This document shows, in pieces, positions 40,470 through 58,417 of a DNA stretch of 64,000 nucleotides (the first letter of the stretch is position 1; each line of letters opens with the position of its first letter). The notes beneath the pieces were generated by a model, which worked only from the letters and a program-made list of their open reading frames with translations, was not told the origin of the DNA and made no database searches. This DNA is from Natronococcus sp. CG52 (GTDB lineage Archaea > Halobacteriota > Halobacteria > Halobacteriales > Natrialbaceae), in NCBI RefSeq assembly GCF_023913515.1, contig NZ_CP099391.1, forward strand, positions 2,852,001 to 2,916,000, given 5' to 3'. Both the position numbers and the translations under genes were made by a program.

Positions 40470-40470
40470 A

Positions 40471-40621: not shown

Positions 40622-40671
40622 CGAGGCCGAGAGGGAGCCGTCGAACGGGAACGGATTGCGGATTGGTATCG

Positions 40672-40698: not shown

Positions 40699-40730
40699 GC
40701 GACTGAGCGGGCGTCGTCGGTCGAGACGAC

Positions 40731-40760
40731 CCCCCCACCCACACCGGATTTCAGATGAAT
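40731..40760 (+). repeat. ORB-like repeat 4 with C/G-run
   Basis: Full-length element: a ccccccaccc run followed by acaccggatttcagatgaat. The G-string beside the core is a usual part of archaeal ORBs. Confidence 0.85.
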
Positions 40761-41474: not shown

Positions 41475-42425
41475 ATGGATCTAACGGACGGCCGAATTCT
41501 CGTGACGGGCGGGGCGGGGTTCATCGGTTCACATCTCTCGGAGCGTCTCGTTGCGGACAACGAGGTCGTCATCGTCGACGACTTCTCGAACGGACGTGAA
41601 CGATGGGTCCCTGACGGCGCGGAGTTGCTCGAAGTGGATCTCACCGACCGGGCAGCGGTCGCGGAAACTGTCGATTCCGATCTCGACCTCGTTTTCCACC
41701 TCGCCGCTCGAAAGGATCCCAACGACGACGACCCTCGCGGTCAGTTTGCCGAGAACACGACCATGACGCACTCGCTTCTCGAGGCGTGTCGTACCGCCGG
41801 TGTCGAGCGCTTCGCGTTCGCGTCGTCGTCGACCGTCTACGGGGAAGCGCCACGACCGACGCCCGAAGATTACGCGCCGCTCGAGCCGATCAGCGTCTAC
41901 GGGGCGAGTAAACTCGGCGAGGAAGGGCTGGTTTCGACGTACGCACACTCCCACGGACTCACCGCGTGGACGTTTCGCTTCGCAAACGTCGTCGGCCCTC
42001 GCCTTCGCGGAGCCGTCGTTCCGGACTTCATCGAAAAACTCCGCGAGGACCCGCGCTCGCTCACCGTTCTCGGCGACGGCCGGCAGGAGAAATCCTATCT
42101 CCACGTCGACGATTGCGTAGACGCGATGTGCCACGTAATTGCAAACGCCGGCGCCCGACACGCGAAATCGAACGCGGGTTCGATGCACACGTACAATCTC
42201 GGGACCCGGACGACGACGTCGGTCGATCGAATCGCCGACATCGTCAGCGACGCGCTGGAGATCGATCCGGAGTACGAATACACGGGAGGCGACCGAGGGT
42301 GGACGGGAGACGTGCCCCGAATGCGACTGTCCATCGAAAAGCTATCCGCACTCAAGTGGGAACCGACGGTAGAGAGCGACGACGCCGTTCGTCGAGCGGC
42401 GGACGAACTGATCGGCGAGCTATAA
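41475..42425 (+). CDS. NAD-dependent NDP-sugar epimerase/dehydratase
   Basis: A 316-residue extended SDR enzyme. NAD motif GGAGFIGSHLSERL (residues about 11-24), active-site Ser region FASSSTVYG, and YGASKLGEE supplying the YxxxK pair. Closest in layout to UDP-glucose 4-epimerases. I chose the ATG at 41475, since the upstream 29 codons are not conserved in character. First gene on the far side of the origin, it probably supplies a nucleotide sugar for the glycan built by the downstream genes. Confidence 0.88.
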   Translation: MDLTDGRILVTGGAGFIGSHLSERLVADNEVVIVDDFSNGRERWVPDGAELLEVDLTDRAAVAETVDSDLDLVFHLAARKDPNDDDPRGQFAENTTMTHSLLEACRTAGVERFAFASSSTVYGEAPRPTPEDYAPLEPISVYGASKLGEEGLVSTYAHSHGLTAWTFRFANVVGPRLRGAVVPDFIEKLREDPRSLTVLGDGRQEKSYLHVDDCVDAMCHVIANAGARHAKSNAGSMHTYNLGTRTTTSVDRIADIVSDALEIDPEYEYTGGDRGWTGDVPRMRLSIEKLSALKWEPTVESDDAVRRAADELIGEL

Positions 42426-42539: not shown

Positions 42540-43457
42540 ATGCACGATAACCGGATTCTCGTGACGGGCGGCGCGGGATTTATCGGCGCTAATCTCGCCA
42601 ACTCGCTGGCCGAGCGAAACGACGTGATCGCGCTCGACGACTGCTACCTCGGAACTCCCGAAAACCTCTCGGACGACGTGACCTTCGTCGAAGCGAGCGT
42701 GCTAGACGACGATCTCCCGACGGACGTAGACGTCGTGGTTCACCTCGCGGCCCTCTCCTCGTACGCTATGCACGAGGACGATCCGCGCCGAGGCGTCCGA
42801 GTAAACGTCGAAGGGTTCGTGAACGTCGTCGAGCAGGCGCGGCGAGACGGCTGTGAAACCGTCGTTTACGCATCGACATCGTCGATCTACGGAACGCGAA
42901 CGGAGCCGTCCCCGGAGGATATGGACGTCACCGTGAATACCGGTTACGAAGCGTCGAAGGTCGCTCGAGAGCGCTACGGAGAGTACTTCTCGAACCACTA
43001 CGGGCTGTCCGCGTGTGGGATGCGTTTCTTTTCGGTCTACCAGGGGTACGACGGGGCCGAAGAGCACAAGGGAAAGTTCGCGAACGTGATCGCGCAATTC
43101 GCCGACGACGTTGCAAACGGCGACTCGCCGAAACTCTACGGCGACGGGACCCAGACGCGAGACTTCACGCACGTCACGGACGTCGTTCGCGCCCTCGAAC
43201 TGGCCGCCGAGCGCGAACTCGACGGGATCTACAACGTCGGAACCGGCGAGCCGTATTCGTTCAATACGATCGTCGACCTCCTCAACGAAGAACTCGACAC
43301 GAGCGTCGAACCCGAGTACGTCGAGAATCCGATCTCGGATGCGGTCTACGTTCACGACACGTGCGCCGACGCTTCGAAGCTACGGGCGGAGACGGGCTGG
43401 GAGCCCGAGATCAGCCTCGAGGAGGGGATAGAACGGGTGTGTGAATCGTACAGATAA
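42540..43457 (+). CDS. NAD-dependent NDP-sugar epimerase/dehydratase
   Basis: A 305-residue extended SDR with GGAGFIGANLANSL, YASTSSIYG and the YEASKVARE catalytic pair, plus FFSVYQGYDG and the substrate-loop GDGTQTRDFTHVTDVVRA. It is a paralogue of the preceding gene with different substrate-binding loops, so the two probably act on different sugars (UDP-glucose/UDP-glucuronate type). Its stop lies 80 bases before the next gene, which has its own promoter. Confidence 0.88.
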   Translation: MHDNRILVTGGAGFIGANLANSLAERNDVIALDDCYLGTPENLSDDVTFVEASVLDDDLPTDVDVVVHLAALSSYAMHEDDPRRGVRVNVEGFVNVVEQARRDGCETVVYASTSSIYGTRTEPSPEDMDVTVNTGYEASKVARERYGEYFSNHYGLSACGMRFFSVYQGYDGAEEHKGKFANVIAQFADDVANGDSPKLYGDGTQTRDFTHVTDVVRALELAAERELDGIYNVGTGEPYSFNTIVDLLNEELDTSVEPEYVENPISDAVYVHDTCADASKLRAETGWEPEISLEEGIERVCESYR

Positions 43458-43537: not shown

Positions 43538-44680
43538 ATGAACCTGCTCGCGGTGGCTACCGTTTCGCTTCTTCTGCTGACGGCCGCACCCTACGTCTGT
43601 TACCTCGCGCTTCACGCGTGGATTCGTCCGCGGGGATCGCCGGCGGACAAGCGGCCCGCAGAACCGACGGTTAGCATCGTGCTTCCGACGTACAACGAAG
43701 AACGGATCGTCGAGACGAAACTCGACGACCTGCTCGAACTCGACTACCCGATGGAGAAAATCGAGCTCGTCGTCGTCGACTCGTCGACCGACGACACTCG
43801 GACGATCATTCGCGAATACGTCGCTGACCTGGACGCCCCCGAACTGGTGCTACTCGAGGAAGACGAGCGCCGCGGTCTCGCCGTAGCGCTCAACGACGCG
43901 TACGCCGCCGCGTCGAACGACGTCGTCGTCAAGACCGACTGCGATTCCAAACTCTCGTCGGACGTCCTCCGGGAAGCAGTCGCGAACCTCGCGGACGACG
44001 ACGTCGCGGCCGTGACGGGACGAAACGCCGAGGTGCTCGGCGGCAGCGAAGTCGAGTCCGGGTACCGGGGTGTCCAGAGTCACATCCAGCAACTCGAGTC
44101 TCACCTCGACTCGACGCTCATCTTTCACGGGCCGTTCTGTGCGTTCGAGAACGACGCGCTCCTCCCTATCGACCCGAACTCGCTGGCCGACGACACCGAA
44201 CTCGCCCTGAAGATTCGTCGGCAGGGCCAACGGGTGATCTTCGACCCCGCCGTGACGTACATGGAAGCGAGTCACTCCGAGTTCATGAAACGACGCACGC
44301 AGAAGGACCGCCGCGGGATGGGGCTGATCCGATTGCTGATCCAGCACCGCGACGCGCTCGGTCGGTACGGCAACTACGGACGTGTCGTCCTGCCGTTCAA
44401 CTGGTGGTTCATGATCGTCTCGCCGTGGTTGCTCGCGGCGACGCTCGCCGTCGGAACCGTCGCGGCCGTCTCGCTGTTCGGCGTCGGCGGACTGGCGGCT
44501 CCCGTCGCCGTTGGCGCGTTCACGTATCTCGGCCAGCGTGATTTACTCGGACCGGTACAGCCGCTGTACTCGATCTTCGATACGCAGGTATCCTTGCTGC
44601 GAGCGAGTATCGCGCTGGTGATCGGCGACGCAGACGGAACGTGGGACGTCGACGCCGAGCTGCGGGAGGCGTTCAAGTGA
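43538..44680 (+). CDS. Membrane GT2-family glycosyltransferase
   Basis: A 380-residue protein: one N-terminal membrane helix, a GT-A domain (VSIVLPTYNEERIVETKLDD, VVVDSSTDDT, and DCDSKLSSD as the DxD-like motif), an acceptor region with SLADDTELALKIRRQG and QKDRRGMG, then two to three C-terminal helices. The topology is that of processive or lipid-linked sugar transferases such as AglE-type enzymes. It overlaps the next GT4 gene by 4 bases (GTGA). Confidence 0.87.
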   Translation: MNLLAVATVSLLLLTAAPYVCYLALHAWIRPRGSPADKRPAEPTVSIVLPTYNEERIVETKLDDLLELDYPMEKIELVVVDSSTDDTRTIIREYVADLDAPELVLLEEDERRGLAVALNDAYAAASNDVVVKTDCDSKLSSDVLREAVANLADDDVAAVTGRNAEVLGGSEVESGYRGVQSHIQQLESHLDSTLIFHGPFCAFENDALLPIDPNSLADDTELALKIRRQGQRVIFDPAVTYMEASHSEFMKRRTQKDRRGMGLIRLLIQHRDALGRYGNYGRVVLPFNWWFMIVSPWLLAATLAVGTVAAVSLFGVGGLAAPVAVGAFTYLGQRDLLGPVQPLYSIFDTQVSLLRASIALVIGDADGTWDVDAELREAFK

Positions 44681-45714
44681 AGATTCTGCTCGTCACGCAC
44701 CGATACCCGCCGCACGCGGGAGGCGTCGAGACCCACGTTCGCGAACTCGCCACTCGTCTCGTCGACCGCGGACACGACGTGACGGTGTTTAGCGCGGACG
44801 CCGAACCGGACGTCGAACGACGCCACACCGACGATGGGGTGCGAATCCGTCGATTTGCGTCCGCGAGTCCCGGAAGTGCGTTCTACGCGGCGCCGCAGCT
44901 GACCCTCGCCGTCCGCCGTTTCGATGCCGACGTCGTTCACGCGCACAACTACCACGCGTTTCCCCTGTTTTTCGCCGCCCTCGGAATCACGGACGAGCGG
45001 TTCGTCGTCACGACCCACTATCACGGCGGCAGCGCCGACGGCGTTCGAGACGCGTTGCTGTCGCTCTATCGGCCGTTCGGTCGGTCGGCCCTTCGGCGAG
45101 CGGACGACGTGATCGCCGTCAGTGACTGGGAACGGAACCGACTGCGAACGGATTTCGGGGTCGACGCGACGGTGATCCCCAACGGCCTGCACGTCGACCG
45201 CTTTACGGCCGCCGACCCCGAGCGACGGGACGCCCCGTACCTCCTGTCGGTCGGCCGCCTCGAGGAGTACAAGGGCGTCCAGCACGCGATCCGCGCGCTC
45301 CCCGAACTACCCGAGTACGAACTGCTGGTGGCGGGGCGCGGGCCGTACCGGACCAGTTTGGAGCGGCTCGCCCGCGAGACGGGCGTCGCGGACCGGGTGA
45401 CGTTTCTCGGGTTCGTCGACGACGATCGATTACCGCGACTGTACGCCGGAGCGGACGCGTACGTGACGCTGTCGGCGTTCGAGGCGTACGGGATGACGGT
45501 CGCGGAAGCCCTGGCAGCGGGGACGCCGTGCGTCGTCAGAGCGGCCGGCGCGCTGACGGATTGGATCGACCGAGAGGGGTGCGTCGGCGTCGCCGACCCG
45601 TCCCCGACGGCGGTCGCAGCGCGGATTCGCGACGCGGTCGACCGCGATATCGACGCGACCGAAGTCCCGAACTGGGACGACGTTACCGACCGACTCGTCA
45701 CGCGATACGCGTGA
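44677..45714 (+). CDS. GT4-family glycosyltransferase
   Basis: A 345-residue GT-B enzyme with no membrane segment. It starts with GTG at 44677 (KILLVTHRYPPHAGGVETHV). The N-domain has VVHAHNYHAF, and the donor domain has LLSVGRLEEYKGVQHAIRAL, FLGFVDDDRLPRLYAGAD and the catalytic SAFEAYGMTVAEALAAGTP (the E-x7-E motif). Translationally coupled to the preceding GT2, it probably extends the same glycan in the cytoplasm. Confidence 0.9.
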   Translation: MKILLVTHRYPPHAGGVETHVRELATRLVDRGHDVTVFSADAEPDVERRHTDDGVRIRRFASASPGSAFYAAPQLTLAVRRFDADVVHAHNYHAFPLFFAALGITDERFVVTTHYHGGSADGVRDALLSLYRPFGRSALRRADDVIAVSDWERNRLRTDFGVDATVIPNGLHVDRFTAADPERRDAPYLLSVGRLEEYKGVQHAIRALPELPEYELLVAGRGPYRTSLERLARETGVADRVTFLGFVDDDRLPRLYAGADAYVTLSAFEAYGMTVAEALAAGTPCVVRAAGALTDWIDREGCVGVADPSPTAVAARIRDAVDRDIDATEVPNWDDVTDRLVTRYA

Positions 45715-45781: not shown

Positions 45782-47149
45782 ATGAACGTCCTCCTGGTGA
45801 CCGTCGATTCGCTGCGCGCCGACCGGGTGAGTTCGAACGTGATGCCCGCGACCCGGTCGTTCGCCGATACCGCCCTGGAGTTTACCGAGTGTATCGCTAA
45901 CGGCCCGTCGACTCCCGCATCCTTTCCCGCTATCCACGCGAGCCGGCACTTCGCGAGCATCGAGGGACTGGGGATTCCGCCCCGGAAAACGGACAACGGT
46001 GTTCGGACGCTGGCCGAGACGCTCTCCGAGGCGGGATACGCGACCGCCGGCTACACGGACAACCACTTCGCCAGCGGATCGTACCACTACGATCGCGGAT
46101 TCGAGACGATGTACGACGCCAGCGGCAGGACCGAAGCGGGGCGACTCAAACAGTTCGTTCAATCGAATCTCGAGAAGGACGGCGCGCTGTTCAAGAGCAT
46201 CGAGGCGGTGTACAACCGCGCCGACGCGCTCCTCGCCGAGGCGACCGGCGACGACAGCGAGTACGAGCGCGCGGCGTCGCTGAACGATCGCGCGCTCGAG
46301 TGGATCGACGATCGGTCCGGCGACTGGTTCGCGTGGCTCCACTATATGGATGCCCACCACCCCTACGAGGCCCCCGAGAGGTATCAGCGGCAGTTCCTCG
46401 ACGAACCGCTCTCGCTGTCTCGCTGTCGCGGTCTCTCCCGCAAGGGGACCCACCATCCGGAGGACGTGACGGACGAGGAGTGGGACCTGATTCGCGGCCT
46501 CTACGACGCCGAGTGCGCCTACGCGGACGATCAGTTCGAGGCCCTGCTCGGCGCGCTCCACGAGCGCGACCTCCTCGAGGAGACGGTAATCCTGTTCACC
46601 GCCGATCACGGCGAACTCGTCGGCGAACACGGCCACGCCGGTCATCCGCCGAAGTTCTGGGAGGGTATCATCCGCGTCCCGTTCGTCCTCCACCACCCCG
46701 GCAGAGCCGCCGACGTCGTCGACGGGCAGATTCGACTCCTCGACGCGGCGCCGACGATCGCCGATGCGGTCGGGCGCGCTCCGTTCGACGGGTGGCAGGG
46801 AGCGTCGGCGCTGACGATCGCCGACGGCGACGTCGACGCGCGCGAGTTCGCCTTCGGTGACGTGGGGCGGCGGGTCGAGTACGGCCGGTGTTGCGTCCGC
46901 CGCGCCGACGGCTGGAAACTGCTGCGCCACGACGACGGCGAGTTCTGCTTCGACGTGACCGAGACGCCGGCGGAAGATCCCGAGGACGACCGGTCCGACG
47001 ACGCGTCGACCGAGTGCGGCGAACTGTCGGAAGCGCTCGACGACCATCAGGAACGAATGCGGCGGCTTCGGGAGGGCGGCTCGGTCGGCGTCGCGGAGGA
47101 CGAGCGAATGGTCGAGGAGCACCTGCGCGACCTCGGCTACATGGAATAA
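45782..47149 (+). CDS. Sulfatase-like AlkP-superfamily enzyme
   Basis: A 455-residue protein from ATG 45782. Metal-site motifs are VTVDSLRADRV (first Asp), YMDAHHPYEAP and FTADHGELVGEHGHAGH. The nucleophile region GPSTPASFPAIHAS lacks the CxPSR formylglycine motif, so it is not a classical sulfatase; a Ser/Thr nucleophile suggests phosphohydrolase or phosphotransferase activity. There is no signal peptide or membrane segment, so it is cytoplasmic. It ends LRDLGYME. It is the first of seven AlkP-fold genes in the island. Confidence 0.85.
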   Translation: MNVLLVTVDSLRADRVSSNVMPATRSFADTALEFTECIANGPSTPASFPAIHASRHFASIEGLGIPPRKTDNGVRTLAETLSEAGYATAGYTDNHFASGSYHYDRGFETMYDASGRTEAGRLKQFVQSNLEKDGALFKSIEAVYNRADALLAEATGDDSEYERAASLNDRALEWIDDRSGDWFAWLHYMDAHHPYEAPERYQRQFLDEPLSLSRCRGLSRKGTHHPEDVTDEEWDLIRGLYDAECAYADDQFEALLGALHERDLLEETVILFTADHGELVGEHGHAGHPPKFWEGIIRVPFVLHHPGRAADVVDGQIRLLDAAPTIADAVGRAPFDGWQGASALTIADGDVDAREFAFGDVGRRVEYGRCCVRRADGWKLLRHDDGEFCFDVTETPAEDPEDDRSDDASTECGELSEALDDHQERMRRLREGGSVGVAEDERMVEEHLRDLGYME

Positions 47150-47191
47150 CTACGGATCGACGTGGAGAGGCTACGGAGCGACGTGGAGCAG

Positions 47192-48109
47192 CTACAGATA
47201 CCCCAGAGCGCCGAGTTTTTCCTCGATATCTCCCCGTTCCGTACCTGGCTCTCGCTCGGGAACGTAATTTCCGGTGTCGGTCGCACTCGTCTCGTACCAC
47301 GGAACGTTCCGTATCGACTCGAGCGGGACCCGCGGATGACCGTACACGCCCCACTCGCCCGCCGCGTTTCCGTGATCTGCGCTGATAGCGACCCGTTCGG
47401 CGTCGAGGTTCTCGAGCAGCAGTTCTACGTCTTCGAGGACGTAGCGGAGGTTCTCGCGGTACGACGACCAGAGGGTGTCGCGGTCGAGATCGCCGCGCCG
47501 GAGGCGATGCCACGGCGAGTCCCATCCTTCGCCGTCGCCGAGCGTTTCGGCGTTCATCCCGTCGGTGAGCGGCTCGGGAACGGACGGAAAGTGCGGTTGC
47601 ATGTAGTGGACGATGAGGCGATCGTGGTCGTTCTCTCGCCCCGCGGCGATCGCCCGGTCGGTGACGGCTCGCGCCGGAATCGTGCCCGACCCCTCGTCCC
47701 AGCCGTAGCGCCAGACCTCGTCGAGCGCGAGCAGGTCGCCGCCGGAGAGCACGCGTTTACTGAACGGATTCCCGGTGACGTACGCCGTCCCCCGCATTTC
47801 GTCCGCGTACTCGTCTGTAAAGGTGTTCTCGATCCACTCGATCGACGAACTGCCGACGGACGTCAGCGTCCCCGGATCGTCGAGAAACGGGTACTCGGCT
47901 GCGACCTCTCCGATCAGATCGATCCGACAGGCGTCCAGGAGGATCAGCGCGTCCCACTCGCGGTCGTACACGTGTTCGCCGCCGGAGTAGAACGCGTTCA
48001 ACCGTCGGAGGCCACCGAGATAGAGTTCGTAGGCGCTATCTGCTGTGCCACCGACCGGGTCGCTCCGGATTCGTTCGGACGTGTCCGAGACCCAATCAGC
48101 GATCGTCAT
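47192..48109 (-). CDS. Small AlkP-superfamily protein
   Basis: A 305-residue protein. AlkP-like motifs: ALILLDACRIDLIGEV (metal Asp), a Ser-rich possible nucleophile SVGSSSIEW, IVHYMQPHFPS, and ISADHGNAAGEWGVYGHP. It is shorter than sulfatases, with a 50-residue N-terminal helical part and no signal peptide. It ends EKLGALGYL. It faces the preceding sulfatase-like gene convergently and has its own promoter in the 278-base divergent region to its right. Confidence 0.8.
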   Translation of the reverse strand: MTIADWVSDTSERIRSDPVGGTADSAYELYLGGLRRLNAFYSGGEHVYDREWDALILLDACRIDLIGEVAAEYPFLDDPGTLTSVGSSSIEWIENTFTDEYADEMRGTAYVTGNPFSKRVLSGGDLLALDEVWRYGWDEGSGTIPARAVTDRAIAAGRENDHDRLIVHYMQPHFPSVPEPLTDGMNAETLGDGEGWDSPWHRLRRGDLDRDTLWSSYRENLRYVLEDVELLLENLDAERVAISADHGNAAGEWGVYGHPRVPLESIRNVPWYETSATDTGNYVPEREPGTERGDIEEKLGALGYL

Positions 48110-48387
48110 CGATTTTCGGTATCGGGATCATGCGGTTATCGAGCGGTCGATCCGCACGCAGTGGTTCGACCCGCAGAACTAATAATTACCGCCATCGGCG
48201 GTACTGAATCTGATCCGTTCGAATTCGGAGTCAACGCGGAGGGTTCACCGATATTCGGTGAACCGCCTTCGAATCGCCGAACGGTGCTGACCGCTGACCG
48301 GGAGGATTGCGCACCGCTCGCCGTCTCGAGACCGGCGGATCGACCCGACCACCTGTTATTAGGTCGACGAGCGGATAGTGGCTACCG

Positions 48388-49281
48388 ATGATCGTTCTCG
48401 GAATCGACGCGGCCGACTATCGGCTCGTCAAGCGGTGGAATCTCGAGAATCTCCTCCTGGACAATCACGCCTCGCTCGAAACCTTTTCGCACTCGCTGGA
48501 AACGCCGTCGACGATCGAGGTCTGGCCGTCGATCGCGACCGGCCTCCCTCCGGAGGAGCACGGGCTCTCCGGCGGAAGCAGGGACAGACTCGAGTGGGAG
48601 AATCCGGCGCTCAAACTCGCCAGTCGCCTAACCAGTTACCTCCCGACGGAGGTCAGATACCAGCTCGGTCGGCCGTTTCGTCGAACGTCGTCCCTCGAGT
48701 CCGCGCGAATCGACGACTCCATCCCTCACCTGTTCGACTCCGGACACGTTCGGAACTGGCCGGGAATAACGCCCGCTCGCGAGTGGGGTCAAGCGAGCGA
48801 GTGGTTCGGACGGGTCTCACGGGGTGAACTCTCCGACGAGGAGTACTTCAGACTCGAGATGGGGAACGACGGCCGGATCATCGGCTGGCTCGAGGCGCAG
48901 GCGCTCAGCGGTGTTTCGATCGCCGGCGCACACACGCACGGGCTCGATCACCTCGGTCACGTGTACGCGAAGCGTCCCCAAAGGCTTCGAGAGGGATACG
49001 AACTCATCGATACGCTGGTCGGTCAACTCCGCGACCTCGCCGACGAACTCGTGATCGTCTCCGATCACGGGATGCAACAGACGCTGACGGACGATCCGGA
49101 GCCCGGAGTGCACTCGTGGCACGCGATGGTTTCGACGACGATGGAGGGAGACCTGCCGGACTCGGTATTCGACGTCCGGCCGTGGATCGAAGCGCGCCTC
49201 GGGAGCGAAAGCCGGACGGAGAACGACGCGGCGACGATCGACGCGCCGGCGGAGCACTTGCGGGATCTCGGGTACCTGTGA
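48388..49281 (+). CDS. Short AlkP-superfamily phosphodiesterase-like protein
   Basis: A 297-residue protein starting MIVLGIDAADYRLVKRW. It has the phosphodiesterase-type nucleophile segment ETPSTIEVWPSIATGLPPEEHG, GAHTHGLDHLGHVYA, VIVSDHGMQQTL and a final metal His in GVHSWHAM. It lacks the large insert of its longer relatives, so it may be a minimal version. It ends HLRDLGYL. No signal peptide. Confidence 0.82.
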   Translation: MIVLGIDAADYRLVKRWNLENLLLDNHASLETFSHSLETPSTIEVWPSIATGLPPEEHGLSGGSRDRLEWENPALKLASRLTSYLPTEVRYQLGRPFRRTSSLESARIDDSIPHLFDSGHVRNWPGITPAREWGQASEWFGRVSRGELSDEEYFRLEMGNDGRIIGWLEAQALSGVSIAGAHTHGLDHLGHVYAKRPQRLREGYELIDTLVGQLRDLADELVIVSDHGMQQTLTDDPEPGVHSWHAMVSTTMEGDLPDSVFDVRPWIEARLGSESRTENDAATIDAPAEHLRDLGYL

Positions 49282-49350
49282 CGCGCGGTCGTGCCACTCA
49301 CCGCCCGGAGCGCCGCAGCCCGTCGCGGTCGTTTCGAAGTTGCCCCGATT

Positions 49351-50919
49351 CTATTCTAAGTACCCCAAGTCCCGGAGAGTCTCTTCGACCTCGGGACCGG
49401 CGTCGCGCCCGTCCGCTCCGGTCGCAGTCGGCGGCCCTCGCTCGGGCGATCGGTCCGCGGGGGCGCCGGTCAGAACGTCGAAGCACACCTCGCCGTCGAC
49501 GTCTCGAGGGACTGGCGCGTCGAAGTAGTGGAGCAGCGTCGGCGCGAGGTCGTACAGCGAGAGGTCGAGATCAGTGCGCCCGTCGGCGACGTCCTCGCCC
49601 CACGCGGCGAACACGCCGGTTCGGCGGTGAGTCGCCAACCAGTCGGTCGTTTCGCCGAACACGTCGCCGCCGATCGACTCGGGAGCGTCGACGCCCGGCG
49701 CGTACTCCACGAGGAGGTCGGGACCGCGGAGCCGGTCGCCGGTGTACGCGTCCGCCGGGTCGTGGACGGCGGTCGCCACGGGACCGCCCGCGGGCGTCTC
49801 GAGCCCCTCGAGGTCCTCGGCGAGCGCCGTCGCGTAGCGTGCCGCGGCGTCGTCGCTCGAGAACGCGTCGCGGTTGACGTAGATCGGTCCGCGACCGAGC
49901 GAGACGGCTTTCGTCCGCTCCCAGTCGATGGCGGCGTCCTGGATCGCGACGCGCCCGCTCTCGCTCGGGAAGAGCCGCTGGACGGACTCGGGGACCAGCG
50001 ACTGGGCGAGATTGACCAGCCCCGCCCTGTCGACGAGGCGCTTGAGCCGTTCCTCGGTGAGGCCGACGGTCGCCAGCAGGTCCCGCGTTTCCGAGTCCTC
50101 GATCGCGAGGTCGCCGCGCTCGAGCAGCCACTGGTTCACGAGGAATATTTCGTCGATCTCGACGAAGCCGTGGTCACTCATGAGGACGATCGCCTCCGCG
50201 TCGTCGCGCTCGAGCAGGTCCGCGAGCAGGTCGTCGATCCGTTCGTAGATCGTCCGCAGTTTCTCGGGCCGGTCCCAGAGCCGGTGCTGGAGCGTGTCGG
50301 TCGCGAACAGCGTGGTGTGGACGAGATCGCAGTCCTTCTCGTCGGCGAGCCACGTCGCGGCGCGGAACCGCTGGTCGAACAGCGCCGCCGCTTCGTCGAC
50401 CAGTTCGTCGGGTGTCGCCTCGTCGAGTACGAGGTCCGGCTTGACGCGGTAGTCGGGAATCGCCTCGAGCAGGTCGTCCCCGAGCGACTCGGGCGCGGTA
50501 AACCGCTTCCGTTCACTGGCGGGACTGCCGGCGACGACGAAGAGGCCGTCGCCGTCCGCGTTCCGCCCGCCGGCGTCGGGCGGGTGAGTCGTCGGCATGT
50601 TGATCACGCTGGCGCGGAATCCCCGGTCGGCCAGCACGTCCCAGTACTCCGCCGACCGGAAGTCGCCGGCGTCGTTGGCGGAAATTTCGTCGGTCCGTCG
50701 ATCGTACGCGAACCACTCGTAGACGCCGAGTTTTCCCGGCGTCTTTCCGGTCGAATAACACTTCCACGCCGGAAAGGTTACAGGCGGGAGGGTGCTCTCG
50801 AGATCGCCGGCGACGCCCTCGTCCAGGATCCGAGCGAACGTCGGGAGAGCTCCCTCCTCGATCCACGGCCGGAGTAACGACCAGTCGGCCCCGTCGAGAC
50901 CGAGGACGTAGACGGTCAT
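49351..50919 (-). CDS. AlkP-superfamily type I phosphodiesterase-like enzyme
   Basis: A 522-residue protein starting MTVYVLGLDGADWSLLRPW. The nucleophile region is TLPPVTFPAWKCYSTGKTPGKLGVY, with later metal motifs FATDTLQHRLW and VLMSDHGFVEID. The C-terminal part has YDLAPTLLHYFDAPVP, usual in this subfamily. It ends EETLRDLGYLE. No export signal. It follows a GT4 gene on the same strand by 24 bases, so the two form a minus-strand operon within the island. Confidence 0.87.
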   Translation of the reverse strand: MTVYVLGLDGADWSLLRPWIEEGALPTFARILDEGVAGDLESTLPPVTFPAWKCYSTGKTPGKLGVYEWFAYDRRTDEISANDAGDFRSAEYWDVLADRGFRASVINMPTTHPPDAGGRNADGDGLFVVAGSPASERKRFTAPESLGDDLLEAIPDYRVKPDLVLDEATPDELVDEAAALFDQRFRAATWLADEKDCDLVHTTLFATDTLQHRLWDRPEKLRTIYERIDDLLADLLERDDAEAIVLMSDHGFVEIDEIFLVNQWLLERGDLAIEDSETRDLLATVGLTEERLKRLVDRAGLVNLAQSLVPESVQRLFPSESGRVAIQDAAIDWERTKAVSLGRGPIYVNRDAFSSDDAAARYATALAEDLEGLETPAGGPVATAVHDPADAYTGDRLRGPDLLVEYAPGVDAPESIGGDVFGETTDWLATHRRTGVFAAWGEDVADGRTDLDLSLYDLAPTLLHYFDAPVPRDVDGEVCFDVLTGAPADRSPERGPPTATGADGRDAGPEVEETLRDLGYLE

Positions 50920-50943
50920 ACCCGTTTACTGGATCCGGCGGCG

Positions 50944-51978
50944 CTAAAGTGCTTTGAGAACGTCGCGAAACGCGGTGCGGAACGCGGCTTTTCTCGAGTC
51001 GGGGTCGAATCGGGCGCCGCGCTCCCGAGCGAGAGCCGCGAGCTCCCGGCGCTCGCCGGGACGGCGCTCGAAGTACTCCCGGACGCCGCGGGCGAGCGCG
51101 CGCTCGCTCGGTGTCACGACGAGAGAGGGGTCGATCTCGCGGGCCTCGGAGCGCGTTCCCGCGGTCCGGGTGACGAGCGGGACGAGTCCGGCGCGCATCG
51201 CCTCGAGCGTGCTGACCGGGAACGTGTCCATCCGAGACGGCTGGACGAACAGCGAGGCGGGCGCGAACGCGTCGACGAGTTCCTCGACGTACCCCCGAAC
51301 GCGGACGCCCGGCGTCTCGGCGTACTCCGCGGGGTGACCCCCTCCGACGACGTGGAGTTCGGCGTCCGGAACCGACTCGCGGACCCGCGGCCACGCGTCG
51401 ACGAGCATGTCGACGCCCTTGTACTCCCACGGGCGCGCGACCGTCACCGCGACGTTCGACTCGAGGTCGGGACGCACGCCGCCGAGGGCGTCGTACGTCT
51501 CCCGCTGGATGAACGGGTGGGCGACCTCGATCGGCGTGTCCGGTCCGACGACGGGCCGAGTGAACCCCGCGGCGAACGCCGAGACCGCGACGACGCCGTC
51601 GATCCCGCGGCGTCCGACGGCGCGAACCGCCGGCGTTCCGAACCGCCCGATAACCGATTTCACCGCCGATTCGCCCTCGAAGTCGGCGTTTCCGAGCTGA
51701 TAGAGGCCGTGGTCGGCACAGAGGTAGACGAGTTTCCCGCCGCGGGCGAACCGGCGCGCGAGCGCGGCGTACAGCGGCCGCGACCCTTCCACGAGGTACA
51801 CGTCGTAATCGGGGGCTGCGAGCCCGTTGACAACGTCCTCGATAAGCGTTCCCTCCAGCGGGCCGAGCGCCAGGCGGTGATAGTCGACGAGATCGGCGCC
51901 GATCGCTTCTGCGAACCCGCGGTGCGCCGGATGCGGGTCCTGGTGGAGCATCGCCACGCGGACGGCGTCGGGATCCAT
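50944..51978 (-). CDS. GT4-family glycosyltransferase
   Basis: A 344-residue GT-B enzyme. The N-terminal domain has VRVAMLHQDPHPAHRGFAEA and the donor domain ESNVAVTVARPWEYKGVDML, VRGYVEELVDAFAPASLFVQ and SRMDTFPVSTLEAMRAGLVP with the catalytic Glu. It ends with a short basic segment. It is first in a two-gene minus-strand operon with the AlkP-type enzyme, divergent from the next sulfatase-like gene across 89 bases. Confidence 0.88.
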   Translation of the reverse strand: MDPDAVRVAMLHQDPHPAHRGFAEAIGADLVDYHRLALGPLEGTLIEDVVNGLAAPDYDVYLVEGSRPLYAALARRFARGGKLVYLCADHGLYQLGNADFEGESAVKSVIGRFGTPAVRAVGRRGIDGVVAVSAFAAGFTRPVVGPDTPIEVAHPFIQRETYDALGGVRPDLESNVAVTVARPWEYKGVDMLVDAWPRVRESVPDAELHVVGGGHPAEYAETPGVRVRGYVEELVDAFAPASLFVQPSRMDTFPVSTLEAMRAGLVPLVTRTAGTRSEAREIDPSLVVTPSERALARGVREYFERRPGERRELAALARERGARFDPDSRKAAFRTAFRDVLKAL

Positions 51979-52067
51979 CGTTCGAGACGGCGCACGGTGG
52001 ACGCATAAATGTCGCCCTCGCGAACGCGGAGGGGAGAGTTAACTCGCCCAGGAGCATTGTACCGAGT

Positions 52068-53531
52068 ATGAGCGATCACCCGAACGTCCTCCTGCTCGTT
52101 TTCGACGCGCTCCGGGCCGACGCGCTCTCGTGTGACGAAGCCGCGTTCGGCGTCGAGACGAGCGCCTTCGACAGGGTGGCAGAGCGTGGGACGGTATTCG
52201 AGAACGCGTTCGCAGTCGGGCCGTGGACCCCGCCCTCCCACGGCGCGATGTTTTCCGGAAAGTACCCCAACGCGACCGGTTTCGACGGCTCGTGGCCGAC
52301 CATGCCCGAATCGATCCCGTTACTCGCGGAGTGGTTTTCCGAGCGCGGCTACCGGACGTACGGCATCCCCGGTCCCGCGAAGATGGGGTCCGCGACCGGT
52401 CTCGACCGCGGGTTCGAGTCGTACTACGAAGTGTACGAGAGAATCGCGGATCGACCGTCACTGGCGTACCTCGGGCAGATCGCGACCGAGCCGCTCGTTC
52501 GCAAGGACTTTTTGCGCCTCGTCGGTCGGGGGAACGACTACTACACCGAGATCAAGTTCGATACGCTCCGGGAGTGGCTCGGCGATACGCCCGAGCCGTT
52601 CTTCGCCGTGGCGAACCTGACGACGGTTCACGCGCCGTACGATCCGCCCCGGCCGTACAAGCGAGAAGCGACGCCCGAGCTCTCGCGGCCGCGACTCGGA
52701 CTGCTCGAGGAACTGCTCGACTCCCCCTGTGCGTACGACGACCCCGCCGTCGACGACGAGCGGCTGTTCGCCGCGGCGGACGGCGCCGGCGCACAGAGCG
52801 TCGCGTTGCGGTACCGTGACGACCCCGACTTCCTCTCGGAGGTCGAACTCGACGTCCTCAGGCGGTGGTACGGCGCCTCCCTGCGATACCTCGACGACCG
52901 CCTCGCGGCGTTCCTCGACTGGTTCGAAGGGGCGGGACTCGACGAGAACACCCTCGTCGTGCTCACCGCCGACCACGGCGAACTGTTCGGCGAGCGAGAC
53001 GCGCTGTATCACGGCAACTTCCTCTACGACGAGGTGACCCGCGTCCCGCTCGTGCTCGCCGGACCGGGTATCCCGAGCGGTGAGCGCCGAACCGACCTCG
53101 CGTCGCACGTCGACCTCTTCGCCACGCTCTGCGACCGCTGCGGGCTGGACGAACCGGAAACTGACGGCGATTCGCTGTTCGGGCCCCGTCGGCGCGACGC
53201 CGTCTTTGCGGCCGAAGCCCCCTCGAACCTGGGGGATGTCGATGCCGCGAGTACGGTGGCAGCGGATACCCTCGCGGAGTTCGAACTCGGCCGAAAGTCG
53301 GTGCGCACCGAGAACTACCGATTCGAGCGCCGATCGGACGGGACCGAGGTCCTCTACGAACTCCCCGACGAGTCGATCGTCGACGACCCCGACGAGTCGA
53401 TCGTCGCGGCGCTTCGGGAGCGACTGGTCGGAACGCTCGGAGAGACGTTCGACGACGCCGGGGACGAGGCCGACGTCGACCTGAGCGCCGGAGTCGAACG
53501 CAACCTTCGCGAACTCGGCTACCTCGAGTAG
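52068..53531 (+). CDS. Sulfatase-like AlkP-superfamily enzyme
   Basis: A 487-residue protein. Motifs: VLLLVFDALRADALS (metal Asp), nucleophile region VGPWTPPSHGAMFSGKYPN (Thr in place of the sulfatase Cys), LTTVHAPYDPPRPYK and LTADHGELFGERDALYHGN. No CxPSR, no signal peptide, no membrane helix. It ends RNLRELGYLE. It heads a plus-strand series of three AlkP genes and a flippase with short gaps, so these are probably co-transcribed. Confidence 0.87.
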   Translation: MSDHPNVLLLVFDALRADALSCDEAAFGVETSAFDRVAERGTVFENAFAVGPWTPPSHGAMFSGKYPNATGFDGSWPTMPESIPLLAEWFSERGYRTYGIPGPAKMGSATGLDRGFESYYEVYERIADRPSLAYLGQIATEPLVRKDFLRLVGRGNDYYTEIKFDTLREWLGDTPEPFFAVANLTTVHAPYDPPRPYKREATPELSRPRLGLLEELLDSPCAYDDPAVDDERLFAAADGAGAQSVALRYRDDPDFLSEVELDVLRRWYGASLRYLDDRLAAFLDWFEGAGLDENTLVVLTADHGELFGERDALYHGNFLYDEVTRVPLVLAGPGIPSGERRTDLASHVDLFATLCDRCGLDEPETDGDSLFGPRRRDAVFAAEAPSNLGDVDAASTVAADTLAEFELGRKSVRTENYRFERRSDGTEVLYELPDESIVDDPDESIVAALRERLVGTLGETFDDAGDEADVDLSAGVERNLRELGYLE

Positions 53532-53577
53532 CACCGTAGAAAACAGTTTTAAGCCGCCTCGTCGGATCGGTCGAGAC

Positions 53578-55182
53578 ATGCAGACCCTCTTGGTCGGCCT
53601 CGACGCCGCCTGCTTCCCGGTACTCCGACCGCTGTTCGAGGACGGCGAGTTGCCCCACCTCGAGGCGGTGTTCGAGGGTGGGGCCGCGGACCGACTGGAG
53701 TCCCAGATTCCGCCCTGGACCGCGAGCGCGTGGCCCTCGCTGTGTACCGGTGTGAACCCCGGCAAACACGGCGTCTTCGACTTCCTGCGCTTCGACGGCT
53801 ACGACTGGGACATCGTCAACGCGACCGACGTGCGACGGCGCAGCCTCTGGGAGTACGCCGACGACGCCGGACTGACAAGCGTGGTCGTCAACGTCCCGGT
53901 AACGAGCCCGCCACCCGAAATCGACGGCGCTGTCGTTCCGGGCTACCTGGCCTCGGAGGAGCCCCGGTGTCACCCCGACGGCGTTCTCGACGACATCCGG
54001 GACGCGACCGGGGAGTACCGCGTCTACGCCCGCCGGGAGACGGACGAGCGCGCCGGGGAGGAGAAGTTCGACGACTACCTCGACCTCACTCGGATGCGCG
54101 GCGAGGCGTTTCGCTACCTCGCCGATCGGTTCGACCCCGAGTTCGGCTTCGTCCAGTTTCAGAAGACCGACGCAGTGTTCCACGACTTCCCGGGCGAGCG
54201 CGAGAAAGTCGAGCGGATCTACCGCGCCGTAGACGAGCAGGTGGGCGCGATTCTCGACGCCTGCGATCCCGATACCGTCGTCGTCGCCAGCGACCACGGA
54301 ATCGGCGAGTACGACGGCTACGAGTTCCGGATCAACCAGTACCTCCGGGAGGCCGGCGTCGTCGAAACCACGACCGACGGGCAGGGCGTCCCCTCGTGGT
54401 TCCAGATAAAGGACGAGCGACTGACCGAGGGCGGTGACGGCGGTCGGTCCGGTCACCCGTTCCTCGAGCGCCTCGCCGCCACCGCGGCGAGCGCCGGCCT
54501 GACCTACCAGCGAAGCAAGGCTATCCTCGAACGACTCGGCCTCGCCGAGTTCGTCGGTAAGCGCGTACCCGTCGGAGCCGTGTTCGCAGCCAGCGACGCC
54601 GTGGATTTCGCGGCGTCGCGAGCGTACCTCCGCTCGCCGTCGGAACTGGGCGTCCGGCTGAACGTCGAAGGGCGCGATCCCGAGGGCGTCGTTCCCGCCG
54701 ACGAGTACGAGTCCGTTCGCGACGATATCATCGAACTCCTGTCGGACGCCACGACGCCGGATGGGGCGCCCGTGTTCGAGGAGGTCGTCCGGCGCGAGCG
54801 GCACATTCACGGCCCCTACGCCGACGAAGCGGTCGACGCGCTCGCGATCCCGAACGACTTTCGACACTCCCTCTCCGCGGTCGTCGGCGAACGGTTCGGC
54901 GATCCCGAACCGTACAATCACAAGCGAGACGGCGTCGTCGCGATCGACGGGCCGAACGTCGACGTCGACGCCGACATCGGGGGTGCGCACCTGTTCGACG
55001 TCGCACCGACCGTCCTGGCGACGCTCGGCATCGCCCCCGCCGAGGCGATGGACGGCGACGCCCTCCCGGCGATCGACGCGCCGGAACCGAGGTCGTATCC
55101 GCCGTACGCGCCCCGCGACCAGACCGCGACCGAGGACGAGGACGTCGTACGGCGCCTCTCGGATCTCGGATACCTAGAGTAA
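53578..55182 (+). CDS. AlkP-superfamily type I phosphodiesterase-like enzyme
   Basis: A 534-residue protein starting MQTLLVGLDAACFPVLRPLF. Nucleophile region: QIPPWTASAWPSLCTGVNPGKHGVF; metal sites: QKTDAVFHDFPG and VVVASDHGIGEYDGYEF; later HLFDVAPTVLATLGI. It belongs to the same subfamily as the 49351 and 55231 genes. It ends RRLSDLGYLE. No export signal, so the substrate is likely cytoplasmic or at the inner membrane face. Confidence 0.87.
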   Translation: MQTLLVGLDAACFPVLRPLFEDGELPHLEAVFEGGAADRLESQIPPWTASAWPSLCTGVNPGKHGVFDFLRFDGYDWDIVNATDVRRRSLWEYADDAGLTSVVVNVPVTSPPPEIDGAVVPGYLASEEPRCHPDGVLDDIRDATGEYRVYARRETDERAGEEKFDDYLDLTRMRGEAFRYLADRFDPEFGFVQFQKTDAVFHDFPGEREKVERIYRAVDEQVGAILDACDPDTVVVASDHGIGEYDGYEFRINQYLREAGVVETTTDGQGVPSWFQIKDERLTEGGDGGRSGHPFLERLAATAASAGLTYQRSKAILERLGLAEFVGKRVPVGAVFAASDAVDFAASRAYLRSPSELGVRLNVEGRDPEGVVPADEYESVRDDIIELLSDATTPDGAPVFEEVVRRERHIHGPYADEAVDALAIPNDFRHSLSAVVGERFGDPEPYNHKRDGVVAIDGPNVDVDADIGGAHLFDVAPTVLATLGIAPAEAMDGDALPAIDAPEPRSYPPYAPRDQTATEDEDVVRRLSDLGYLE

Positions 55183-55230
55183 CCGAAACGGATCACACAC
55201 CTTTTGCCGGTCGACGTCATCACGACGCAC

Positions 55231-56787
55231 ATGATCGTTCTCGGACTCGACGGGGCGACCTTCTCGCTCATCGATCCCTGGGTGGAGGACGGGCACCTCC
55301 CGACGTTCGAGCGCTTGCTCGACGAGAGCGTCCACGGCGAACTCGAGAGCACGGTCCCCGAAATCACGGTTCCGGCGTGGCCCGCCTTCGCCACGGGGCG
55401 AAACCCGCCGGAACTCGATATGTACGGATTCACCCACTTCAACCGCGACACTCGCGAGAACGACCTGAGCCACGACGAGTTCGTCCCCGGAAAGATGTGG
55501 GACGTCGTCGACGATCAAGACGGTTCGGCTGTCGTCTTTAACATCCCCGGCTCGTACCCGTGGCAGGCCATCGACGGCACGATCATCGCCGCGGCTCCCG
55601 AGTACAAGGAGGAGTACGCCCACCCGCCCGAGCGCTGGGACGAACTGACCGAGCTCGTCGACGGCTACAAACTCCGTAACGACGAACGACCGGGATCGCG
55701 CGCCTACGTCGATCGGAGTCTCGAACTGGTCGACAAGCGCTTCGAGGCGTTCGAGCACTTCATCCGCGCGGAAGACCCCGAGCTGGCCGTCGGGCTGATC
55801 AGAGCGACCGATCGCGTGGCCCACCACTACTGGGGGGAAGACAGCGTCCCGCCGGCGTCGCCGAGCAATCCGGTGTTCGAGGTGTACCGCCACGTCGACG
55901 AGCGACTCGGGGAGTTCCTCGACGCCCACGAGGACGACGACGTCGTCGTGATCAGCGACCACGGCTTCGAGAAGGTCCGCGAGAACTTCGCGGTCAACGT
56001 CGTCCTCGAACGCGCCGGCCTCGTTTCCGTGCGGGATTCCGGCGACGCGACCAGAGCCGCGCTGGGATCTGTTCGCGACGTCGCCAGCGATGCGCTCGGT
56101 CGGATCGGGCTCCTGACGCTCGCCCGAAGGATGATCCCCGAGAGCGCCCTGACCGGCGTGCCGTCCGGCGACGCGCTCGGGCTCGACAACGCCCTCAGCA
56201 CCGGCCGGATCGACTGGACGGAGACGCGGGCGCTCGCGGACGTCGGTCAGAAGACCGCGATGATCTACGTCGTCCGAGACGATCCCGACGAGATCGCTCG
56301 GATCTGTGACGACGCCGAAACCGCGCTTCGCGAATCGGCCGAGCGGGAGGGGATGACGGTGCGGTTTCTCCGACTCGAGCGGGGCGGGCCGCACACGCCG
56401 GACCTCTGCATGGTCATCGAAACGCCGGAAGTTCACGCCTCCTCCCGGTTCGACGTCGAGGACGCGGTGTTCGAGATCGACACCAGCGGCCACGCTCGCG
56501 AGGGGATCTTCCTCGCCCGCGGCCCGTCGTTCCGCGAGGGCACCGTCGAAGGTGCCGCACTGACCGACGTCGCGCCGACGGTCCTGCACGCGTCGGGATA
56601 CCGGGTTCCGGCGTCGATGTCCGGAGACCTCCTCGACGTCTACGCGGGCGGTACCGATCCCGCCGAGCGCGAACCCGAGTACTACGACTTCATCGGAGCG
56701 GACGCCGTCACGGCCGGCGGAGTCTCCGACGACGAGAAGGCGTCCGAGGTGAAGGATAGACTCCGCGAACTGGGGTATCTGGAGTAA
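55231..56787 (+). CDS. AlkP-superfamily type I phosphodiesterase-like enzyme
   Basis: A 518-residue protein from ATG 55231 (MIVLGLDGATFSLIDPWVED). Nucleophile region: STVPEITVPAWPAFATGRNP; metal sites: IRATDRVAHHYWG and VVVISDHGFEKVREN; later ALTDVAPTVLHASGY. It ends KDRLRELGYLE. Its TAA overlaps the flippase ATG by one base, which ties its activity to the export step of glycan assembly. Confidence 0.87.
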   Translation: MIVLGLDGATFSLIDPWVEDGHLPTFERLLDESVHGELESTVPEITVPAWPAFATGRNPPELDMYGFTHFNRDTRENDLSHDEFVPGKMWDVVDDQDGSAVVFNIPGSYPWQAIDGTIIAAAPEYKEEYAHPPERWDELTELVDGYKLRNDERPGSRAYVDRSLELVDKRFEAFEHFIRAEDPELAVGLIRATDRVAHHYWGEDSVPPASPSNPVFEVYRHVDERLGEFLDAHEDDDVVVISDHGFEKVRENFAVNVVLERAGLVSVRDSGDATRAALGSVRDVASDALGRIGLLTLARRMIPESALTGVPSGDALGLDNALSTGRIDWTETRALADVGQKTAMIYVVRDDPDEIARICDDAETALRESAEREGMTVRFLRLERGGPHTPDLCMVIETPEVHASSRFDVEDAVFEIDTSGHAREGIFLARGPSFREGTVEGAALTDVAPTVLHASGYRVPASMSGDLLDVYAGGTDPAEREPEYYDFIGADAVTAGGVSDDEKASEVKDRLRELGYLE

Positions 56788-58253
56788 TGAAAGTCGGTGC
56801 AGAAACGTCGAAGCGGTTCGTCACGAACGTTCTCGGAACGGTCGCGGGGTTTCTGGGAACGGTCATTTTTACGCGCGAACTCGGCTTCGAGGGCATCGGC
56901 GCGTACGCGATTTTCTTCAGCCTTCAGATGGTGGCGGCGAATCTCGTCAGCTTCGGACTCTACCCGACCGTCGTCAAACGGGTGAGCGAGAAGAACCGCG
57001 AAGCGCGTCAGTTCACCAGCGGCGGTCTGATCCTCCTCGCCGGCGTCGTCGTGGTCGCCGTGGCGTCGATGGTCTTCCGTGACTGGATCAACCAGTTGAT
57101 CGGCGTGGATGCCGCGGCGCTCGTTCCTCTCAGCGTTCTCTCGTGGGGGATGTTCCGGCTCTCGGGATCGTTCCTGGAGGGGAAACAGCGGGTCGCCCTC
57201 GTCGGCGCGATAGAGAACGGACGATACGCGCTCATCGTGCCGATTCAAGTCGCGCTGATCGGCGCGGGACTCGGGGTCGTCGGGCTCATCTGGGGATTGA
57301 TCGCGGGGCAGTTCCTGATTTTCTTGATTTCGTACGTCGGATTCGCACGCGTCGTCCCGGCCTGGCCCTCGATGGAACTGTTCCGGGAGTTCGTTAACTA
57401 CTCGAAATACGCGTACGTCCAGAACGTCTCCAGCCAACTCTTCAAACAGGCGGATTACATACTCCTCGGCTACTTCGTCGGCCCCGGGCCGACCGGAGTC
57501 TATCTGAACGTCTTTCGAATCACCGAAGCGTCGATGCTGTTTTCCTCCGCGCTGTCTCAGGTGGCCTTCCCGCAGTTCTCGGCCCTGACGGAGAGGGGAG
57601 ACGACGAGCGAATCTCTCGTCTGCTCGCCAGCGTGTTCACGTACGCCGGGCTGTTCGCGATTCCGATGATCGGCGGCGGTGCCGTCATCGGGAACGCGCT
57701 CCTGATGACCGTCTACGCGAACAGCGCGGGCACCCTCTCGCTCCCCCTCGTGGGCGTCGTCGGGATGGCAAACGCGTTGCTCCCGGTACTCGCGGTGGCG
57801 AACCTGCTCAACGGGTACCGCGAGGGACTGGAAATGTTCTTCCTCGGAACGGATCAGCCGCGAGTCTACGCGGTTAGCGGGCTCCTCCTCATATTCGTCT
57901 ACACCCTGTTGTCGGTACCGCTCACGGTGCTGTTCGGTCCGTGGGGCATCGCGTGTGCGACCGTTCTCGCGTTCGGCGCGAGCGTCGTCATTTTGCTCGT
58001 TTTTCTCGACGAGCAGATACCGGAATCGGCGTCGATCGACGTCGGCGTACAGCTAATATCGATGCTGGGTATGACCGCCGTCGTGTACGCGCTCAAACTG
58101 CAGCTGGGCGGTGCTCTCGGCTGGGCGCGAATCACGATCCTGATCGGCGTGGGCGCGGGGACCTACTTCGCGGGGCTGTTGCTGCTCAGTGAACGGATTC
58201 GTCTCGACGCTATCGGCGTCATCCGCGACCTCCGTAACGAGGGGCTTCTGTAG
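56787..58253 (+). CDS. Oligosaccharide flippase family protein
   Basis: A 488-residue polytopic membrane protein with 12-14 helices of the MATE/Wzx polysaccharide-transporter type. It begins MKVGAETSKRFVTNVLGTVAG, followed by FTRELGFEGIGAYAIFFSLQ and KRVSEKNREARQF, and later YFVGPGPTGVYLNVFRITEA. It probably flips the dolichol-linked glycan to the outer face, the role suggested for AglR in H. volcanii. Position between the AlkP genes and aglB supports that. Confidence 0.88.
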   Translation: MKVGAETSKRFVTNVLGTVAGFLGTVIFTRELGFEGIGAYAIFFSLQMVAANLVSFGLYPTVVKRVSEKNREARQFTSGGLILLAGVVVVAVASMVFRDWINQLIGVDAAALVPLSVLSWGMFRLSGSFLEGKQRVALVGAIENGRYALIVPIQVALIGAGLGVVGLIWGLIAGQFLIFLISYVGFARVVPAWPSMELFREFVNYSKYAYVQNVSSQLFKQADYILLGYFVGPGPTGVYLNVFRITEASMLFSSALSQVAFPQFSALTERGDDERISRLLASVFTYAGLFAIPMIGGGAVIGNALLMTVYANSAGTLSLPLVGVVGMANALLPVLAVANLLNGYREGLEMFFLGTDQPRVYAVSGLLLIFVYTLLSVPLTVLFGPWGIACATVLAFGASVVILLVFLDEQIPESASIDVGVQLISMLGMTAVVYALKLQLGGALGWARITILIGVGAGTYFAGLLLLSERIRLDAIGVIRDLRNEGLL

Positions 58254-58386: not shown

Positions 58387-58394
58387 CTTATTCT
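58387..58394 (+). promoter_or_regulatory. TATA box of aglB
   Basis: cttattct centred about 27 bases before the ATG at 58418. This supports a separate, leaderless aglB transcript and the ATG chosen over an upstream TTG at 58394. Confidence 0.55.
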
Positions 58395-58417
58395 TGGCTT
58401 GGGTCTGGTGCAAGCTA

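Follow-up and report, generated by a model that had tools for sequence, protein, structure and literature searches.

Seven alkaline-phosphatase-fold proteins of a haloarchaeal N-glycosylation island as candidate cytoplasmic transferases of lipid-linked glycan

Gene content of the island

The window analyzed here, a stretch of 64,000 nucleotides from the haloarchaeon Natronococcus sp. CG52 (NZ_CP099391.1, positions 2,852,001 to 2,916,000), is located on the 3.97-Mb contig of the genome, and contains an N-glycosylation island in which seven genes for proteins of the alkaline phosphatase (AlkP) fold, here called E, F, G, H, J, K, and L, lie upstream of a flippase gene and aglB (Table 1). An initial annotation, made from the letters of the window, had described seven AlkP-fold genes at this place and divided them into two sulfatase-like, three long phosphodiesterase-like, and two short forms. 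All seven proved to be intact open frames within 45782-56787, F being recognized by a profile search and a structural model, and the division agreed with Pfam assignments and protein lengths. Family scans likewise upheld the identification of the neighbors as epimerase, glycosyltransferase (GT2 and GT4), flippase, and AglB genes. Pfam scans of the whole 4.74-Mb genome detected ∼20 AlkP genes, and since six of these lie with F in only 11 kb, the cluster is not attributable to chance. J, K, L, and the flippase gene are co-directional, with successive gaps of 46, 48, and -1 bases, and the last AlkP gene overlaps the flippase gene, as had been noticed, by one base (TAATG). The description of AlkP genes alternating with GT4 genes in operon-like pairs was overstated, since only two GT4 genes are present, located before E and between H and J, respectively, and both strands carry genes.

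Table 1. AlkP-fold genes and neighboring genes of the island (positions in the window).
Gene	Position	Strand	Description
E	45782..47149	+	455 aa; sulfatase-type AlkP, PF00884; C-terminal end HLRDLGYME
F	47192..48109	-	305 aa; short AlkP, Agl30 (VNG1056C) family, without Pfam model; end KLGALGYL
G	48388..49281	+	297 aa; short phosphodiesterase-type AlkP, PF01663; end HLRDLGYL
H	49351..50919	-	522 aa; long phosphodiesterase-type AlkP, PF01663; end LRDLGYLE
J	52068..53531	+	487 aa; sulfatase-type AlkP, PF00884; flexible linker, then C-terminal helix LRELGYLE
K	53578..55182	+	534 aa; long phosphodiesterase-type AlkP, PF01663; end LSDLGYLE
L	55231..56787	+	518 aa; long phosphodiesterase-type AlkP, PF01663; end LRELGYLE; alternative TTG start 55204
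Two nucleoside diphosphate-sugar epimerase/dehydratase genes	41478-42425 and 42540-43457	+	
Membrane GT2 glycosyltransferase	43538..44680	+	
GT4 glycosyltransferase upstream of E	44674..45714	+	overlaps GT2 gene
GT4 glycosyltransferase of conserved cassette	50944..51978	-	same strand as H, 24-base spacing
Polysaccharide flippase	56787..58253	+	PF13440/PF01943; presumed exporter of finished lipid-linked glycan
AglB oligosaccharyltransferase	58394..61369	+	TIGR04154, E 2.6e-266; likely start 58418

When the seven proteins were scanned against Pfam, E and J matched PF00884, G, H, K, and L matched PF01663, and F matched no model. For F, a profile search gave a weak but consistent match to choline sulfatase (E = 8e-5), and also to phosphoethanolamine transferases. 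Its AlphaFold model (predicted local distance difference test, 89; predicted template modeling score, 0.87) had the catalytic domains of MCR and EptA as nearest PDB structures in Foldseek (E = 2.6e-7). Together with an alignment of 38 relatives, these results establish the AlkP fold of F. The top Foldseek matches to the model of J were class I sulfatases, the best being 6HHM, and relatives of E in two related genomes were 70–89% identical to it. E and J share their fold with the class I (formylglycine) sulfatases, but differ from them in lacking a signal peptide, in carrying a C-terminal tail of the form LxxLGY, and in having Thr in place of Cys or formylglycine, within GPSTPASFPA in E and within GPWTPPSHGAMFSG in J. 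Asp, His, and DHG, as found in the sulfatase/EptA branch, are retained in E, J, and F, and the formylglycine motif, CxPSR or CxASR, is absent from all seven proteins. With the motif missing and Thr at the aligned position in E and J, the earlier judgment that classical sulfatase function is unlikely stands.

G, H, K, and L group with the PF01663 phosphodiesterase branch, outside the subfamilies of Agl30 and Agl31 discussed below, and keep all metal and nucleophile residues of its two-metal site. In H these are D9, T48, D208, H212, D249, H250, and H431, and the series D, T, D, H, D, H, H is invariant in the long family; the same motifs occur in G (Thr42 plus the DxxxH and DHG metal motifs). Metal and Thr residues are shared with phosphonoacetate hydrolase and the nucleotide pyrophosphatase/phosphodiesterases (NPP), from which the four proteins differ in their low identity, intracellular location, LxxLGY tail, and placement in glycan loci.

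The absence of export signals from the set was likewise corroborated: no hydrophobic N-terminal segment was found when the N-termini were scanned, none of the seven proteins has a transmembrane segment or signal, and in six of them the fold starts already at residue 2–6. In F, the first 60 residues contain no hydrophobic segment, and are modeled with helices at 3–16 and 18–40. These features agree with the cytoplasmic location that had been proposed. A sulfotransferase domain (PF00685 or PF13469) was detected in none of the seven proteins by the Pfam scan.

Linkage to aglB, C-terminal tail, and synteny

A role in N-glycan assembly, as put forward in the initial annotation, would be contradicted if genes of this kind were unlinked to glycan loci elsewhere. 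In a survey of neighborhoods, 80 named haloarchaeal aglB loci were collected by a scan with an aglB alignment, and searched with profiles of four AlkP subfamilies (sulfatase-type, F-type, long, and G-type), with twenty 20-kb regions (400 kb) as control. The link was strong, 50 of the 80 loci holding 144 AlkP genes (70 sulfatase-type, 47 F-type, 17 long, and 10 G-type), and no gene of the four subfamilies was present in the 400 kb of control DNA. As an internal control, all 144 genes lay upstream of aglB, and zero downstream. At the nucleophile position of the aglB-linked sulfatase type there were 61 Thr, 15 Ser, and 0 Cys (76/76 Thr or Ser).

The proteins of these loci are also marked by the LxxLGY tail, which was found at the C-terminus of 131 of the 144 and in only 6 of 1,664 other called genes; most exceptions were truncated by the end of the locus. 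All seven window proteins carry the tail. It is preceded by a variable acidic linker, and in the models of J and F both linker and tail have low confidence, the tail forming a short helix. Such a helix on a flexible linker might serve as a docking tag for one common partner. A free C-terminal end would not be required, since Agl30 and Agl31 (discussed below) still functioned with a C-terminal tag when expressed in Haloferax volcanii (PMC11980604).

These data bear on the simplest alternative, that ordinary catabolic sulfatases came to lie near aglB by accident, as the match to sulfatase profiles might suggest. Neither the CxPSR/CxASR motif nor an export signal is present, in all 50 loci the genes lie only on the upstream side of aglB, and the window genome's own Cys-type sulfatases form a separate group, with five Cys (formylglycine-type) sulfatases all tailless and three Thr ones all tailed. 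We regard this alternative as refuted by the motif and linkage tests, with a negligible residual probability. The survey suggests instead that hundreds of haloarchaeal genes adjacent to aglB and labeled ‘sulfatase’ or ‘alkaline phosphatase family protein’ build charged glycans rather than degrade them, and Thr or Ser instead of Cys, the LxxLGY tail, and the lack of a signal peptide offer simple marks by which such builders may be distinguished.

The cassette formed by H, the second GT4 gene, J, K, L, and the flippase gene (AlkP-GT-AlkP-AlkP-AlkP-flippase, GT standing for glycosyltransferase) was found in the same order and orientation beside aglB in Halorussus marinus, Haloferax mucosum, and Haloprofundus marisrubri. 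The cassette AlkP proteins of these three species are 54–80% identical to those of the window, whereas the adjoining aglB products are just 35–40% identical, and the cassette has therefore evidently been exchanged laterally, independent of the resident aglB, as judged from these sequence comparisons. The left part of the island, from the epimerases to G, is common in full only to one genome of the same genus. Exchange of a cassette beside a resident aglB recalls serotype switching, and is relevant to the specificity of mating and of virus-host interaction.

The tail was considered as a universal mark of F-type proteins, and rejected as such, because a conserved tailless branch (MEDQRFLE...PWLEVE) exists, which recurs across haloarchaea, and the methanogen members are tailless. 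F-type proteins without the tail occur in haloarchaea (15/15 genomes sampled) and, in a few cases, elsewhere in the phylum (4/85 other genomes); in one of the latter, a methanogen locus has F-type and long-type AlkP genes together with glycosyltransferase genes and an STT3-like gene. Two small genomes from another family of the phylum gave 12 and 9 separate tailless F-type matches, several in tandem. On the main contig of the window genome, a second glycan-like locus (∼2.599–2.604 Mb) consists of two GT4 genes, a tailless F-type AlkP gene, and a tailed sulfatase-type AlkP gene in succession, and at ∼2.022–2.029 Mb a long AlkP gene encoding an LGY tail lies beside polysaccharide deacetylase and epimerase genes; relatives of this long AlkP are present in most related genomes searched.

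Relation to Agl30 and Agl31 of Halobacterium

No glycoprotein modification had been discovered outside eukaryotes before sulfated N-glycans, but, to our knowledge, the sulfotransferases of sulfated archaeal N-glycans were named only in 2025. The study that did so tested three AlkP genes of the Halobacterium salinarum aglB cluster, VNG1056C, VNG1057C, and VNG1063H, and the first two encode Agl30 (UniProt Q9HQQ3) and Agl31 (Q9HQQ2) (PMC11980604). Membrane-bound Agl30 is required for sulfate on the third sugar, and is reported to sulfate the iduronic acid of the tetrasaccharide linked to dolichol phosphate (Dol-P); soluble Agl31 is required for sulfate on the fourth sugar (PMC11980604). Deletion of both lowered the sulfated peptide >300-fold, and either protein alone, when expressed in Haloferax volcanii, added a sulfate-sized group to the host glycan (PMC11980604). 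Sulfation in Hbt. salinarum takes place on the dolichol-linked glycan (PMC11980604), and thus before flipping. Similarly, Agl7 of Hfx. volcanii is required for sulfation of a Dol-P-linked hexose (PMC3871713), and the step proposed for the window proteins is like that of Agl7 in acting on a Dol-P-linked sugar before flipping.

Translation of the published Agl30 primers gave the peptides DFGHLDM, ITDRTV, and a C-terminal HLEDLGYL, and at the aligned places F-family members of Halobellus have DFGQLDM, ITDRTV, and HLEDLGYL. The first two peptides are separated by ∼23 residues in the F alignment, as the quantitative PCR pair demands. An alternative reading of one primer as an active-site peptide, GLWTPGY, was rejected, because the frame giving DFGHLDM fits the F family with the correct spacing to ITDRTV. 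By these three peptides Agl30 is assigned to the F type, with which it shares an LGYL-type end (LEDLGYL) and a place in an aglB cluster, F itself sitting ∼10 kb upstream of aglB. Agl30 is membrane-associated, and its relative in Hbt. salinarum DSM 3754 has a hydrophobic N-terminal stretch, which the window F does not. E and J are regarded as of the Agl31 kind, being PF00884-type proteins without export signal or transmembrane segment. Agl31 is an arylsulfatase-type AlkP protein whose closest solved structure is 6HHM (PMC11980604), which is also the closest PDB structure to the model of J, and it has an LxxLGY end (LEELGYT). The window differs in having two genes of the Agl31 kind plus four phosphodiesterase-type genes.

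An Agl31 primer had no match in 392 + 26 genomes, nor an Agl30 primer in two Halobacterium genomes, which is explained by divergence of DSM 3754 (91-R6) from strain NRC-1 at the DNA level in regions rich in glycosyltransferase genes (PMC10264941). In the DSM 3754 cluster a sulfatase-type gene adjoins an F-type gene, the former being a distant relative of the Agl31 kind. In Halobacterium bonnevillei, the sulfatase-type gene next to the F-type gene is apparently split in two frames (locus positions 6477-7858), by either a sequencing error or a frameshift.

This precedent qualifies two points of the initial annotation. The lack of a sulfotransferase gene, used there as an argument against sulfate chemistry, carries no such weight, since the homologous Agl30 and Agl31 are reported sulfotransferases. 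The step is also not wholly undescribed, although G, H, K, and L have no characterized homolog. That AlkP proteins are required for N-glycan sulfation was thus already known; what is new here is the set of four subfamilies and its breadth, the tail, the exchangeable cassette, the four phosphodiesterase-type members, and the missing donor pathway.

Proposed reactions and the sulfate donor

We propose that the seven AlkP-fold proteins are transferases that decorate the Dol-P-linked N-glycan in the cytoplasm, with E, F, and J acting as sulfotransferases and G, H, K, and L performing related transfers, and we assign this reading a probability of roughly 0.6. Cytoplasmic modification of the lipid-linked glycan is its well-supported part. 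By analogy with Agl30 and Agl31, intracellular sulfation of the sugar chain is the most likely activity of E, F, and J, and the “missing” sulfotransferases are probably these AlkP proteins themselves; the group added by G, H, K, and L is probably sulfate, phosphate, or something similar. The phosphate-linked step originally suggested is retained to this extent: a group is probably transferred to the glycan while it is still lipid-linked and has yet to be flipped, but for E, F, and J sulfate is better supported.

In the proposed pathway, the AlkP proteins would modify the Dol-P-linked N-glycan on the cytoplasmic face, the adjacent flippase would then export the decorated glycan, and the adjacent AglB would attach it to S-layer and archaellum proteins. 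In E, F, and J, the conserved Thr or Ser would take a sulfuryl group from the donor and pass it to a sugar hydroxyl. Such a two-step transfer would resemble that of EptA or LtaS, except that the group would be sulfate and the reaction intracellular. In G, H, K, and L, related transfers to that glycan (of sulfate, phosphate, or a phospho-substituent) would use the two-metal Thr site. A two-step transfer via Thr or Ser before flipping is the most economical reading. When Ser replaced formylglycine in choline sulfatase (C54S), kcat/KM was ∼1000-fold lower (PMC5870055), a loss that fits enzymes passing the group to sugar and not to water. The same result argues against a role of the proteins as cytoplasmic hydrolases, by which lipid-linked glycan or nucleotide sugars would be trimmed or edited for quality control or recycling: with Ser or Thr they should be very poor sulfatases. 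Although most members of PF00884 and PF01663 are hydrolases, it would be odd for a single glycan to require seven linked hydrolases, and Agl30 and Agl31 work in the building direction, so that we consider this explanation improbable.

More serious is the possibility that phosphate or a phospho-alcohol is added to lipid-linked sugars by the whole set, or by G, H, K, and L at least, acting as phosphotransferases in the manner of cytoplasmic relatives of EptA, LtaS, or NPP. Thr and Ser nucleophiles are typical of phosphate chemistry in the AlkP superfamily, the two-metal Thr site known from NPP and phosphonoacetate hydrolase is complete in G, H, K, and L, and the folds nearest to F are phosphoethanolamine transferases. 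EptA/MCR and LtaS are, like the proposed window enzymes, AlkP-fold transferases, but they reside in the membrane, have an extracytoplasmic active site, and transfer phosphoethanolamine or phosphoglycerol, whereas the window proteins have no transmembrane segment. The only relatives that have been tested, Agl30 and Agl31, add sulfate, and no gene for a phospho-donor (e.g., cytidine diphosphate glycerol) was found among the neighbors whose families were scanned. We therefore hold phosphate transfer by the set to be a distinctly less probable, though sizeable, alternative.

This phosphate alternative also draws on the genes of sulfate activation, which are absent from most genomes examined. No ATP sulfurylase (Sat or CysD) scored above the cut-off in six genomes, and a real adenosine 5′-phosphosulfate (APS) kinase was present in only two of them, the window's genome and its sister, and in none of the other four, including Hbt. 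salinarum DSM 3754. The draft assembly of that strain, whose species is known for sulfated glycans, has no recognizable Sat, CysD, or APS kinase. In the window genome, an APS kinase fused to a cytidylyltransferase-like domain adjoins a classical sulfotransferase gene (PF13469) on a 393-kb replicon (∼199–201 kb); the reported absence of a sulfotransferase thus holds for the parts of the window scanned, but not for the genome. Supply of 3′-phosphoadenosine 5′-phosphosulfate (PAPS) by the usual genes was rejected as a general explanation, since APS kinase is missing from two genomes that have all or most of the cassette. Either activation takes an unrecognized form or the donor is other than PAPS, which raises the question of how sulfate is activated in a cell without recognizable ATP sulfurylase or APS kinase.

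Several points weigh against sulfate transfer by the set. The donor is the weakest part of the proposal, given the absence of Sat and CysD from six genomes and of APS kinase from four. VNG1063H, the remaining one of the three AlkP genes tested in Hbt. salinarum, had no visible effect on sulfation (PMC11980604), and membership in an aglB cluster is therefore no proof of activity. The assignment of Agl30 and Agl31 as sulfotransferases is based on deletions and heterologous expression, not on purified enzyme. At a resolution coarser than a few ppm, moreover, a shift of 79.96 in mass could be due to phosphate as well as sulfate. G, H, K, and L belong by sequence to a phosphodiesterase branch in which they have no characterized close relative. 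A more far-reaching proposal, which we put forward only tentatively, is that G, H, K, and L represent a new class of cytoplasmic glycan transferase (sulfuryl or phosphoryl, with a non-PAPS donor), which would be docked with the Agl30/Agl31-type enzymes by LxxLGY tails on one membrane assembly, as an exchangeable decoration cassette setting surface charge and type.

Two further features flank the island. A GT2 glycosyltransferase gene on the minus strand (37922-38932), just outside it, is possibly part of the pathway. Genes for a Cdc6/Orc1-type protein (39090-40742) and an AAA protein with a Cdc6 lid (61624-62802) lie to the left and right of the island, respectively, and a replication origin may be located near them.

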